Assembly: GCA_902782305.1 (NCBI GenBank)
Contig: CACZMV010000021.1
Coordinates: 1-46,213, forward strand
DNA length: 46,213 bases
Source of the DNA: an uncultured Prevotellaceae bacterium
Lineage (GTDB): Bacteria > Bacteroidota > Bacteroidia > Bacteroidales > Bacteroidaceae
Reading direction: 5' to 3'
Numbering within the stretch: position 1 is the first letter of the stretch; every line of letters begins with the position of its first letter. The translations under genes and the position numbers were made by a program. Below the pieces are notes generated by a model. It saw nothing but the letters and a program-made list of their open reading frames with translations, was not told the DNA's origin and made no database searches. Shown here piece after piece: positions 38,183 through 43,699 of the stretch.

Positions 38183-39419
38183 TATATATCAAGGTATAGA
38201 GGATGTCTGCTACATCTGGCGTCAGGAGGTGAAGCGCATCATCAAGGATGAAGGAGTACTTATCTTCTTCTTCTTGGTGCCTTTGGCCTATCCGTTGCTC
38301 TATTCGTGGATTTACAACAACGAGGCTGTCCACGAAGTGCCCGTCTGTGTGGTCGACCAGTCCCACTCCTTCCTCTCGCGCCAGTTCCTGCGTCAGTGCG
38401 ACGCTTCCCCCGATGTGCGCATTGCCTATTACGCTCAGGATATGGATGAGGCCAAGTCTTTGGTCAGCCGACAATTGGTCAAGGGCGTCTACCTCATTCC
38501 CAGCGACTTTGCCGAGAAAGTCAACCGCATGGAACAAGGCGTCATCAGCGTCTATTGCGACATGAGCCTGATGCTCACCTATAAAGCCATTTTCCAGACC
38601 GCCCAGACCGTCACCATGGAGATGGGCAATGATATCAAGAAGAAGCTTAGAGGCGCCTATACAGCCCGCGAAGAAGCCATTTCCACCCGTCCTCTTGACT
38701 ACGACGATGTGGCCATCTTCAATCCCCAGGGCGGCTATGGCTCGTCTGTGCTTCCTGCCGTGCTGATGCTCATTCTTCAGCAGACCCTCGTGCTCGGCAT
38801 CGGACTCTCTGCCGGTACTGCCCGCGACGAGAATCCCTATCGCAACCTCATTCCCATTGGCGATGTCCGTTACGACAATACCTTTGTCATTGTCTTGGGC
38901 AAGTCCCTGTGCTATTTCATGGTCTATTGCATCATGGGCACGTGGTTGTCCATTGTGGTTCCGCGCTTGTTCAATTTCCCCCATCTCGCCACTTGGCAAA
39001 CCCTTTTCCACCTCATGCTGCCCTACACCCTGGCGTGCATCTTCTTCGGCATCGTGGTGTCCTGTCTCGTCAAGTATCGCGAGAATGTCATGCTGCTCAT
39101 GGTCTTCATCAGTGTGCCCCTGCTGTTCATGACCGGTGTCTCTTGGCCCCAGTCCAATATCCCCGGCTATTGGCAGGGCGTTTCGTGGCTCTTCCCCAGC
39201 ACCTTCGGTTGCCGAGCCTATGTGCGTGTCAACACCATGGGCGCCACCCTCTACGATGTCGCCACTGAATATCGCATCCTGTGGATTCAGGTAGCCGCCT
39301 ATTTCACGCTGGCCTGCGTGGTCTATCGTTTCCAGATTTACCGTTCCCACAAATACGCTTTGGAGCGCTTGGAGTTCCTTCGTCACAAACGTCAGGAGAA
39401 AGAGTCGAATGCCCAGTAA
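38166..39419 (+). CDS. ABC-2 type transporter permease (second copy)
   Basis: A 417-residue partner of the preceding permease with the same layout: N-terminal helix (about 31-50), a periplasmic domain starting VPVCVVDQSHSFLSRQ, and a C-terminal membrane block. It overlaps the first permease by 17 bp and gtrA by 11 bp, indicating tight coupling. A long open frame on the opposite strand across the gene is a by-product of codon usage. Confidence 0.9.
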   Translation: MSIFHSIYQGIEDVCYIWRQEVKRIIKDEGVLIFFFLVPLAYPLLYSWIYNNEAVHEVPVCVVDQSHSFLSRQFLRQCDASPDVRIAYYAQDMDEAKSLVSRQLVKGVYLIPSDFAEKVNRMEQGVISVYCDMSLMLTYKAIFQTAQTVTMEMGNDIKKKLRGAYTAREEAISTRPLDYDDVAIFNPQGGYGSSVLPAVLMLILQQTLVLGIGLSAGTARDENPYRNLIPIGDVRYDNTFVIVLGKSLCYFMVYCIMGTWLSIVVPRLFNFPHLATWQTLFHLMLPYTLACIFFGIVVSCLVKYRENVMLLMVFISVPLLFMTGVSWPQSNIPGYWQGVSWLFPSTFGCRAYVRVNTMGATLYDVATEYRILWIQVAAYFTLACVVYRFQIYRSHKYALERLEFLRHKRQEKESNAQ

Positions 39420-39810
39420 GAAGTTGTTTGGAGTCCCCCTCGATCGTCAGTCCCTAGGCGAGATGATTCGTTTCTCCATAGTGGGTGTGCTGGTCACCGC
39501 CATCCATTATGCCGTCTACTGGCTGCTCCAGCTGGTCATTGATGTCAATATCTCTTGGACGGCAGGCTATATCGCCGGCTTTGTGTTCAACTATTACATG
39601 AGTGCCTACTTCATCTTTCGTTCTAAGGCCAACGTCAAGAATGGCGCAGGCTTCGGTGTGGCCCACATTGTCAACTACCTGCTGCAGATGGTTCTCCTCA
39701 ATGTCTTCCTGAAGATGGGTCTAAGCACCACCATGGCTCCCGTGGGTGTCTATGCCGTCTCGATACCCGTCAACTACATCCTTGTCCGCTTCGTCTTCAA
39801 GCATTCGTGA
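39409..39810 (+). CDS. GtrA-like four-helix membrane protein
   Basis: A 133-residue protein with four transmembrane helices and the GtrA motifs RFSIVGVLVTAIHYAVYW, AGYIAGFVFNYYMSAYFIF and IPVNYILVRFVF. GtrA-type proteins help move undecaprenyl-linked sugars in surface-polysaccharide decoration. It overlaps the permease by 11 bp. Its last 27 bp, from a GTCCGC start to the TGA, plus one base, form the left copy of a 28-bp direct repeat. The second copy is 1.4 kb downstream. Confidence 0.9.
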   Translation: MPSKKLFGVPLDRQSLGEMIRFSIVGVLVTAIHYAVYWLLQLVIDVNISWTAGYIAGFVFNYYMSAYFIFRSKANVKNGAGFGVAHIVNYLLQMVLLNVFLKMGLSTTMAPVGVYAVSIPVNYILVRFVFKHS

Positions 39811-39811
39811 C
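39784..39811 (+). repeat. Left copy of a 28-bp direct repeat (gtrA 3' end)
   Basis: Begins GTCCGCTTCG and ends CATTCGTGAC. Identical over all 28 bp to 41223-41250. It includes the gtrA stop codon. Confidence 0.95.
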
Positions 39812-39845
39812 TAGCACGTAACAATTTCCTGCCTTCTCGACGTGT

Positions 39846-39866
39846 GTCAGGTACTTGGTACATGAC
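39846..39866. repeat. Inverted repeat upstream of the ATPase gene
   Basis: GTCAGGTAC, TTG, GTACATGAC: 9-bp arms with one mismatch around 3 nt. It lies 14 bp before the phased direct repeats and could be an operator half or a recombination signal. Confidence 0.5.
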
Positions 39867-39879
39867 ATGTGTTGACCAA

Positions 39880-39936
39880 TTTGAGAATTTTGTGATAAAC
39901 TTTTGAGAATTCTGTTTGGTAGATTTGAGAATTTTG
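39880..39936 (+). repeat. Three 13-bp direct repeats at 22-bp intervals
   Basis: TTTGAGAATTTTG at 39880-39892 and 39924-39936, and TTTGAGAATTCTG at 39902-39914. Starts are exactly 22 bp apart, close to two helical turns. The third copy lies between the -33 and -7 boxes, which suits cooperative binding of a repressor. Confidence 0.9.
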
Positions 39937-39946
39937 CGTATCTTTG
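39915..39946 (+). promoter_or_regulatory. Promoter of the AAA/DUF4143 gene
   Basis: TTTG (39915-39918), a 20-bp spacer and TATCTTTG (39939-39946), 20 bp before the ATG at 39967. The third 22-bp-phased repeat occupies most of the spacer. Confidence 0.8.
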
Positions 39947-39966
39947 CAGCAGAAAATCAATGAGTT

Positions 39967-41160
39967 ATGTTCAAAAGAGCGCAATTTAAAGAATTAGAAG
40001 CAAGACTATTGGAACCTAGGAACAAGATTCAAGTTGTCTCTGGTCCTCGTCAGGTTGGTAAATCTACAATGGTCAAGCAGGTCCTTCAGGCTATCACCAT
40101 TCCTTATATGTTTGTCAGTGCCGACAATATCGACCACGCTCATACTGCTTGGATTGGTGAGACATGGGCTACAGCCAGGGCTCGTATGAAAGTGGCTCAA
40201 GCAGAAGAATATCTGCTCGTTATCGATGAGGTTCACAAAATCGACAATTGGAGCGAGGCTGTCAAGAAAGAATGGGACGAAGACAGTTTCAATGACCTCA
40301 ACATGAAGGTGGTCATTCTTGGTTCTTCCAGACTGCTGCTAAAAGACGGTCTGACGGAATCGTTGGCTGGAAGGTACGAACTGATTAGAATGCCGCATTG
40401 GAGTTTCGCAGAAATGCATGAGGCATTCAATCTTGATGTTGACCAGTATATTTATTTTGGTGGCTATCCAGGAGGTGCTATGTATATTAAGGACGAGCGT
40501 AGATGGCGGAAATATATCAAGGACAGCATTGTCGCTCCAGCGATAGAAAAAGATGTGCTACGGACAAAGGTCATCTATAAACCAGCCTTGATGAAACAAC
40601 TATTTGAACTGGGATGTGCCTACTCGAGCGAAGAACTCTCACTGAACAAGATGTTAGGGCAGCTACAGGATGCGGGTAACGTTACGACATTAGCGAGTTA
40701 TCTGACAACGCTTGATGAATCGAGACTATTGTGTGGGTTAAACAAATATGCTTCTGACAATGCTCGTAAGTATAACTCTGTCCCCAAACTGATGGTTTAC
40801 AACGCGGCACTGTTCTCCGTGCAGAGCGGTATGACCTTTAACAAAGCATATACTACACCTAAACTCTGGGGACGTTGGGTAGAGAGTTCAGTTGGTGCCT
40901 ATCTCCTAAACCAGGCCGATGAATACGACTACAAGCTCTATTATTGGCGTGAAAGGGAAGATGAAGTGGACTTCATCATCGAGTACGACAAACGTTGCAT
41001 TGCCATAGAAGTTAAGAGTGGAAGACGAACCAGTAATGAGGGATTGTCCGTTTTTCGTGATAAGTTTCACCCTGTCCAGTCTTTTATTGTAGGTTCTGGT
41101 GGCATACCTATAGATGAGTTCCTTTCATGGGACATCGGCAGATTGCCACTATTTGAATAG
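39967..41160 (+). CDS. AAA_14/DUF4143 ATP-binding protein with nuclease-like C-terminal domain
   Basis: A 397-residue protein. Walker A is GPRQVGKST (Lys32) and Walker B is LLVIDEVHK (Asp86, Glu87). The sensor-like VVILGSSR follows. The C-terminal DUF4143 region contains a PD-(D/E)xK-like pattern, DEVDFIIEYD then IAIEVKSG (about residues 337-358). This family is abundant and of unsettled function in Bacteroidetes and archaea. Codon use and base composition differ from the upstream permease and gtrA genes, with more A/T at third positions. The gene is flanked by 28-bp direct repeats and preceded by phased repeats over its promoter, both suggesting recent acquisition and self-control. Confidence 0.92.
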   Translation: MFKRAQFKELEARLLEPRNKIQVVSGPRQVGKSTMVKQVLQAITIPYMFVSADNIDHAHTAWIGETWATARARMKVAQAEEYLLVIDEVHKIDNWSEAVKKEWDEDSFNDLNMKVVILGSSRLLLKDGLTESLAGRYELIRMPHWSFAEMHEAFNLDVDQYIYFGGYPGGAMYIKDERRWRKYIKDSIVAPAIEKDVLRTKVIYKPALMKQLFELGCAYSSEELSLNKMLGQLQDAGNVTTLASYLTTLDESRLLCGLNKYASDNARKYNSVPKLMVYNAALFSVQSGMTFNKAYTTPKLWGRWVESSVGAYLLNQADEYDYKLYYWREREDEVDFIIEYDKRCIAIEVKSGRRTSNEGLSVFRDKFHPVQSFIVGSGGIPIDEFLSWDIGRLPLFE

Positions 41161-41181
41161 AGAATCAAGGGCCTGGAAAAC

Positions 41182-41212
41182 TGCCACGGGGACTGGTGCC
41201 ACGGGAGACTGG
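41182..41212 (+). repeat. Tandem 15/16-bp repeat near the cassette's right end
   Basis: TGCCACGGGGACTGG (41182-41196) is followed directly by TGCCACGGGAGACTGG (41197-41212), the second with one extra A. It lies between the ATPase stop and the right 28-bp repeat. Confidence 0.8.
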
Positions 41213-41222
41213 AACTTGTTTC

Positions 41223-41250
41223 GTCCGCTTCGTCTTCAAGCATTCGTGAC
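41223..41250 (+). repeat. Right copy of the 28-bp direct repeat
   Basis: Perfect match to 39784-39811, so this is a duplicated gtrA 3' end. It has no coding role here. Confidence 0.95.
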
Positions 41251-41280
41251 GTACAGTTTACAAGAGCCATCTAAACAATA

Positions 41281-41315
41281 GAGGAACTGGCGACTGATGC
41301 CAGTTCCTCTTTGTT
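41281..41315. terminator. Intrinsic terminator, probably that of the gtrA operon
   Basis: A perfect 11-bp stem (41281-41291 with 41299-41309) with a 7-nt loop, followed by TTTGTTT. It lies 31 bp beyond the right 28-bp repeat, where the gtrA operon would end without the cassette. It also faces the 3' end of the minus-strand lipoprotein gene at 41347. Confidence 0.8.
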
Positions 41316-43669: not shown

Positions 43670-43699
43670 GGAACATTGGGGATCGGAACATTGGGGATC
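43670..43699 (+). repeat. Two tandem 15-bp repeats
   Basis: GGAACATTGGGGATC occurs twice with no spacer (43670-43684, 43685-43699). No gene lies here; the stretch is upstream of the minus-strand promoter. Confidence 0.85.

Follow-up and report, generated by a model that had tools for sequence, protein, structure and literature searches.

The segment between positions 39812 and 41222 of a 46,213-nucleotide contig from an uncultured Prevotellaceae bacterium (the whole stretch of DNA analyzed, hereafter the window) is a single-gene insertion into the 3′ end of a gtrA gene, and its flanking 28-bp direct repeat is real, beyond chance, and one case of a general pattern around AAA+/PD-(D/E)XK ATPase-nuclease genes (Table 1). 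The finding is testable and holds generally in the Prevotella-like group; the evidence for insertion with target duplication is good, and the ATPase-nuclease itself is a candidate for the enzyme. The two copies agree at 28 of 28 bases, are the only ones in the window when up to three mismatches are allowed, and had no counterpart in 100 shuffles. The left copy is composed of the last 27 bases of gtrA, stop codon included, plus one base, and the right copy lies outside both gtrA and the ATPase gene. Their starts are 1439 bp apart, and the 1411-bp insert between them holds one gene. A first-pass annotation of the sequence had described a duplicated gtrA end, a lone AAA/DUF4143 gene at this spacing, and a terminator beyond the right copy, and had proposed a one-gene cassette without a transposase; the description was confirmed, and related genes with the same scar, together with existing empty sites, bear out the cassette.

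Table 1. Features of the insertion locus behind gtrA in the window
Feature	Position	Strand	Evidence
gtrA, upstream gene, 3′ end duplicated	39409..39810	+	Pfam PF04138 GtrA_DPMS_TM, E 2.4e-16
Left copy of 28-bp target duplication (gtrA 3′ end with stop codon)	39784..39811	+	identical to 41223-41250
Left filler, inside insert, absent even from 91% identical L246	39812..39871	+	L246 homology from 39872
Three TTTGAGAATTTTG-type repeats, 22-bp period, iteron-like, left edge of conserved unit	39879..39937	+	relatives
TATCTTTG, probable -7 promoter element	39939..39946	+	sequence
AAA_14/DUF4143 ATPase-nuclease gene, 397 aa, PADLOC PDC-S01	39967..41160	+	Pfam, PADLOC
Walker A (VSGPRQVGKS)	40036..40065	+	G26, R28, G31, K32 invariant in 29 sequences
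PD-(D/E)XK-type motif D335...E348-x-K350 (DFIIEYDKRCIAIEVK)	40969..41016	+	conservation
Right filler, stop codon to right copy	41161..41222	+	L246 homology ends 41146
Right copy of 28-bp target duplication, non-coding	41223..41250	+	identical to 39784-39811
Bidirectional terminator-like hairpin, downstream of insert	41280..41310	.	sequence

The inserted gene encodes an AAA_14 domain followed by a DUF4143 domain (Pfam E 2.1e-25 and 2.3e-23), and its product matches the PADLOC model PDLC04791 (PDC-S01) with an E of 3.6e-179. The AlphaFold2 model of the protein has a mean pLDDT of 91.3, and fold matches, obtained with the whole protein as query, lie mainly over residues 1-322. D335 is invariant in 29 sequences, E348 and K350 occur in at least 90% of them, and the D, E, and K of the motif are all invariant in 17 closer sequences; as judged from its sequence, the protein has the D...(D/E)XK catalytic-residue pattern of PD-(D/E)XK nucleases and is a putative member of that group. 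DUF4143 matches (E 1e-8) were present in 169 of 200 genomes of the genus, with between one and at least 17 per genome. According to the available portion of one source, S01 is an ATPase with a fused PD-(D/E)XK superfamily member (PMC12988326), and in the portions available of this and a second source PDC-S01 is treated as a phage-defence candidate, validation pending for most PDCs, and is placed fourth in frequency among the predicted defence systems of prokaryotes (PMC12988326, PMC13356809); in a survey of the bovine rumen, no other individual locus was as frequent (PMC13356809). Those portions of the two papers mention no insertion scar, one-gene unit, or upstream repeats, and a literature search returned no paper on this insertion scar among the matches listed.

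Flanking repeats were scored across the family as any direct repeat common to the left and right 500-bp flanks of a gene (blastn E 1e-5). Such a repeat was detected at 41 of 213 AAA+/PD-(D/E)XK ATPase genes, mostly AAA_14-DUF4143, a rate that is no random-sample estimate since the loci are partly best-scoring matches and partly 60 hand-chosen ones. The 213 genes pool two overlapping sets: 24 of 129 family genes were positive in the first, against 8 of 409 other ORFs of at least 250 aa (Fisher p 4e-10), and 32 of 158 in the second, against 13 of 730 other ORFs of at least 200 aa (Fisher p 6e-16). Exact repeats of at least 28 bp between the 500-bp flanks were found at 15 of the 158 AAA/DUF4143-type genes versus 4 of the 730 others. 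The check proposed in the annotation, a search of other AAA/DUF4143 genes for flanking repeats, thus came out positive. When each left flank was paired with the right flank of another locus, five runs gave 0, 0, 0, 1, and 0 positives among 210-213, which rules out promoters or repeat arrays common to the loci as the source of the repeats of the family. AraC-type regulators gave 0 of 9 testable loci (27 loci in all), and the 730 other ORFs therefore served as the main control. The iterative profile for the family also took in ATPase_2 (PF01637) genes; by Walker motif, repeats occur at 35 of 190 AAA_14/DUF4143-type genes, 3 of 6 ATPase_2-type genes, and 3 of 17 unassigned genes; of these three unassigned positives, Pfam places L104 and L113 in AAA_14/DUF4143. 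A detectable repeat is absent at 172 of the 213 loci, which we count against our best explanation; we assume that repeats there were lost through decay.

Among 40 non-redundant cases, the repeats are 22-234 bp long with 80-100% identity and the inserts 1254-1876 bp long, the uncertain members being L055, L313, L137, and L139_1919, which hold promoter- or array-like sequence, and L096, L098, and L102, which hold common dispersed sequence. The right copy starts no more than 15 nt from the stop codon in 17 of the 40 and, in 3 of these 17, at the stop codon itself. The duplicated block is often a gene end or a terminator. Duplicated 3′ ends include those of mlaF-like (L266), birA-like (L262), and HAD-like (L040) genes, and gene 5′ ends, such as those of wecB-like (L132), glf-like (L314), and NUDIX-like (L276) genes, are used as well, as are terminator-like hairpins (gene names were read from translations). 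Eight relatives whose proteins are 74-95% identical to that of the window have flanking repeats, none of which matches the gtrA block, and among their repeats only those of L255/L257 and L261/L262 match each other. L040, in the one-contig genome G024, has a 76-bp repeat that lies partly beyond the 500-bp test and was left out of the 40. There the native stop is located past the right copy, whereas a new ending has arisen at the left copy: the left copy ends in YGVIS and a stop, and the right copy keeps GVI and a stop. Among 18 listed relatives of the L040 target gene, 11 stop right after the equivalent residue pair and 7 differ or run 1-6 residues on. Taken together, the variable length of the repeat, the unlike repeats of close relatives, and the L040 stop indicate that the repeat is a target duplication, and we regard insertion with a long, variable target duplication as highly probable. 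A dispersed sequence, TTTAATGTCCGTTTTCAAAACTGATACTGCCCCCATGAGATAGGGG, lies beside the ATPase-nuclease genes of L096, L098, and L102 (genomes G045 and G042) and serves there as the duplicated block.

Sites with and without an insert were found in a pair of genomes. G045 has a 1642-bp insert with an ATPase_2-type gene between 56-bp copies that differ by one mismatch, and at this site G042 has one copy and no insert within flanks that are 97-98% identical, an empty site that belongs to the sister AAA+ family ATPase_2 and not to DUF4143. G042 in turn has a 1453-bp DUF4143-type insert between 84-bp copies (72 of 84 positions identical) that correspond to the 3′ end of a resident DUF4143-type gene, and in G045 the resident gene is present with a single copy and nothing inserted, in flanks 72-81% identical to those of G042. 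At a third place, the two genomes carry two DUF4143 genes of 26% identity beside the same right flank (97.6% identical). The gtrA site has also received different cargo. A contig of genome G173 begins inside a gtrA gene that is 97.9% identical to that of the window over 187 bases, and right after gtrA it has a Fic gene, matching the SoFic and PDC-S04 models of PADLOC, flanked on both sides by exact copies of a 98-bp segment, which starts 4 bp into the repeat of the window and extends past the end of gtrA into promoter-like sequence. With DUF4143 in the window and Fic in G173, two cassettes landed at almost the same spot, with duplications of 28 and 98 bp, respectively. The annotation had looked to empty sites with a single copy as a check on mobility; these were found for the family, in G042 and G045, and none was found for gtrA in the species of the window. 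Among gtrA genes of the genus, 1 of 29 has a flanking repeat (E 1e-3, 700 bp). Searches of G042 and G045 with the flanks of L097 and L098 found no intact empty site, and relatives of the L040 target gene, present in 28 of 80 genomes (E 1e-70), are at best 66% identical apart from L040 itself, too distant for an empty site at base level. In the G173 locus (L036, contig 98, copies at 164-261 and 1428-1525), the Fic gene was inserted directly behind promoter-like sequence, and the 98-bp duplication leaves one promoter-like sequence ahead of Fic and one ahead of the next gene.

The mobile unit has three parts, an array of repeats with a 22-bp period, a promoter, and a single gene for an AAA+/PD-(D/E)XK ATPase-nuclease, and includes no transposase. 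Homology between the window and its 91% identical relative L246 is confined to positions 39872-41146, so that filler of 60 bp on the left and 62-76 bp on the right lies between the unit and the 28-bp copies; no source of this filler was found in the fetched comparison loci. The TTTGAGAATTTTG motif starts 86, 64, and 42 nt ahead of the start codon, a spacing kept in most close relatives, in which the TTTGAGAATTTTG-type array with its 22-bp period forms the left edge and ends at the promoter. The TATCTTTG octamer of the window is probably a -7 element of the Bacteroidota type. Other subfamilies have different upstream repeats, often with periods of 22-23 or 32-34 bp. At least two repeats of a 13-mer were present upstream of 126 of 158 family genes versus 84 of 703 other genes, and downstream of 27 of 158 versus 125 of 703. 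The upstream repeats are probably bound by the encoded protein, for autoregulation or for marking the unit. What the loci display is insertion of one gene with target duplication, at variable targets and with variable lengths, without a transposase and with conserved ATPase and nuclease residues. At L062 and L077, the promoter seems by eye to span the junction, with its -33 part in the duplicated target and its -7 part in the insert. A REP-like sequence, GGGGACTGG, at the right end of the window insert was considered as an element end and dropped, as it occurs 9 times in the window against a shuffle mean of 9.3 (one mismatch). A 15-bp tandem repeat at window positions 43670-43699, GGAACATTGGGGATC, resembles this GGGGACTGG-type sequence.

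The cargo of such scars is wider than DUF4143 and includes Fic, SLFN_AlbA_2, ATPase_2, PDDEXK_2, and AAA-PDDEXK_9 genes. Thirty Fic and 30 AlbA loci were taken, with the mid-locus ORF as the gene; flanking repeats were found at 5 of 28 testable Fic genes (p 0.0003 against 13/730), a rate equal to that of the ATPase-nuclease family, and at 2 of 27 testable SLFN_AlbA_2 genes (p 0.10 against 13/730, not significant). One Fic case (L177) is in G088, a genome without a DUF4143 match at E 1e-8, and in another (L176) the left repeat, 69 bp long, has its start within a tRNA-Lys gene, 23 nt short of the tRNA 3′ end. An aldo/keto reductase gene also has flanking repeats. When an 800-kb stretch of G045 was compared with itself, 42 pairs of repeats spaced 600-3200 bp apart emerged. 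In 18 pairs the repeat occurs more than twice in the stretch, and among the remaining 24 many fall within two adjacent ORFs, as in tandem paralogues. Five pairs of our choice were examined closely, and three enclose PDDEXK genes: a PDDEXK_2 gene between 82-bp copies; an AAA-ATPase_like/PDDEXK_9 gene between 31-bp copies made of the last codons, stop, and hairpin of the upstream gene; and an Abi_2 piece, a PDDEXK_2 gene, and a related piece between 177-bp copies. The remaining two enclose a NOV_C gene with a small ORF and a CoA-disulfide-reductase-like gene. The PDDEXK_2 genes found here are presumably Rpn-like. A search for a vehicle at E 1e-20 matched 1 of 50,697 phage records and 4 of 72,556 plasmid records and identified no carrier; one locus on a viral contig came from a pattern-limited scan.

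Our best explanation, which we consider probable as a whole, combines single-gene insertion and target duplication with nuclease-primed copying. On landing, the unit duplicates 22 to about 234 bp of the target, in the window 28 bp from the end of gtrA, so that the gene that is hit stays whole. The ATPase-nuclease would make breaks whose 3′ ends prime DNA synthesis, and copying would switch to the incoming cassette and then back to a point upstream of the break, the switch back giving rise to the duplication and, at times, to filler DNA. The scar requires either that the target be opened at ends separated by tens to hundreds of base pairs or that copying resume upstream of the point at which it broke off. 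The nuclease-primed, RecA-independent template switching itself, as proposed for E. coli Rpn, is a tentative step whose chances we put slightly on the low side of even. The explanation is supported by the excess of flanking repeats, the empty sites, the sites with varying cargo, the unit borders, and the conserved nuclease residues, as well as by the copy ends of L040, the PDDEXK scars of the 800-kb scan, and the experimental Rpn analogue. Scars on Fic, SLFN_AlbA_2, aldo/keto reductase, and CoA-disulfide-reductase-like genes, which have no known nuclease domain, speak against it, as do the equal rate of the Fic genes, the Fic scar in G088 with no DUF4143 match at E 1e-8, and the filler DNA and ragged ends, which are unlike a transposase reaction.

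In the available portion of the Rpn study, these nucleases raise RecA-independent recombination, their products can prime polymerase, they are proposed to serve gene acquisition through RecA-independent recombination with primer-template switching, and two separate introductions of rpnC at one site are inferred (PMC5350276). As described there, the Rpn/YhgA-like genes (PF04754, E. coli RpnA-E) resemble those studied here in being single genes, horizontally spread, and endowed with nuclease activity (PMC5350276). The likeness is one of action only: unlike Rpn, the window protein has an AAA+ domain, and PF04754 was not among its Pfam matches at E 0.001. The term "direct repeat" has no occurrence in the main text of PMC5350276, and the flanks of E. 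coli K-12 rpnC share a match of 14 bp at most, which again counts against the explanation. The simplest reading would be that the ATPase-nucleases act in the manner of Rpn and have, in addition, an AAA+ motor and binding repeats of their own.

The strongest competitor, which we think unlikely yet ahead of all other rivals, holds that small fragments are captured at random by host repair, in the form of template switching or of break repair when DNA is taken up or conjugated, and that selection keeps accessory single genes such as ATPase-nucleases, Fic, and Schlafen-type genes, the encoded nuclease playing no part. It would account for the similar scars on Fic (5/28) and AlbA (2/27) genes, for the aldo/keto reductase and CoA-disulfide-reductase-like cargo, and for ragged ends with filler; at L098 the right copy is found 284 nt downstream of the stop codon, within a neighboring 315-aa ORF, so that the scar there is not a simple duplication. 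Against it stand a family rate (32/158) far above that of other genes (13/730) and the PDDEXK genes in three of the five closely examined pairs of the 800-kb scan, and Ku was found in none of 200 genomes of the genus, many of them incomplete, which makes classical or simple end joining unlikely. The equality of the Fic and family rates, with the Schlafen-type and metabolic cargo, would fit a general host process or an action in trans.

The latter, a recombinase or transposase supplied in trans that reads short target features and moves many one-gene cassettes, is improbable. The gtrA site occupied by DUF4143 in the window and by Fic in G173, and the pair of dissimilar DUF4143 genes that adjoin the same right flank in G042 and G045, would suit it, but no common terminal sequence was seen by eye in 28 junction pairs. 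Known transposases, moreover, make a fixed stagger, unlike duplications of 22-234 bp, and a transposon with a fixed-stagger transposase of its own was rejected because the 40 non-redundant cases lack a duplication of fixed length. Site-specific integration into the 3′ ends of genes, of the kind that tyrosine integrases carry out at tRNA genes and with the attachment block on the cassette, is very improbable: many copies do lie at gene 3′ ends, and the L176 repeat starts inside its tRNA gene, but none of the eight close relatives has a repeat matching the gtrA block, gene 5′ ends and terminator-like hairpins are used too, and the unit has no integrase. A fixed attachment site was accordingly discarded for want of a conserved block, and the annotation's comparison with integration that regenerates a gene 3′ end, as at tRNA genes, fails on the same differing repeats, their range of lengths, and the L040 stop. 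Chance local duplication unrelated to the gene, the annotation's own fallback, is hardly credible even though 13 of 730 other genes also have flanking repeats, being opposed by the sequence shuffles, refuted for the family by shuffled flank pairing (41/213 against 0-1 of about 211), and contradicted by the empty sites.

A scar around a gene for an ATPase with a predicted DNA-cutting domain suggests a minimal jumping gene rather than, or besides, a phage-defence gene. Taken further, to a reading we consider doubtful, the AAA+/PD-(D/E)XK genes (DUF4143, ATPase_2, and kin) would be the smallest autonomous mobile elements of a new class, whose protein would bind its own upstream repeats, cut the target at two widely spaced points, and copy itself in by template switching, leaving the 22-234 bp duplications; PDC-S01 would then be largely a selfish nuclease gene, placed among defence genes because of its mobility. 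If PDC-S01 is a mobile nuclease gene, counts of it as defence need rethinking. The scar also leaves a mark by which the acquisition of single genes without a transposase can be read from genome sequences and measured across many genomes. Target-primed retrotransposons likewise make long target duplications of variable length, but the units described here carry their own promoter and no reverse transcriptase. The same process in E. coli Rpn nucleases has, in the available portion of that study, been approached through genetic assays (PMC5350276). The H47 genomic island of E. coli, in the portion of its description available, is similarly mobile with short direct repeats and without its own recombinase, and its excision is RecA-independent; excision was studied there, and insertion with variable target duplication is seen here (PMC5426353).

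Two loci carry more than one scar. The polysaccharide-like cluster of L132 contains a pair of differing DUF4143-type genes, and each has duplicated another gene 5′ end, one wecB-like (70 bp) and the other ugd-like (40 bp), both named from translations. In L111, cassettes are stacked at repeated gene ends: a DUF4143 gene and an SLFN_AlbA_2 gene are each bordered by copies of a block of 234-245 bp, which corresponds to the 3′ end of a 530-535 aa ORF (AAA-ATPase-like by eye).
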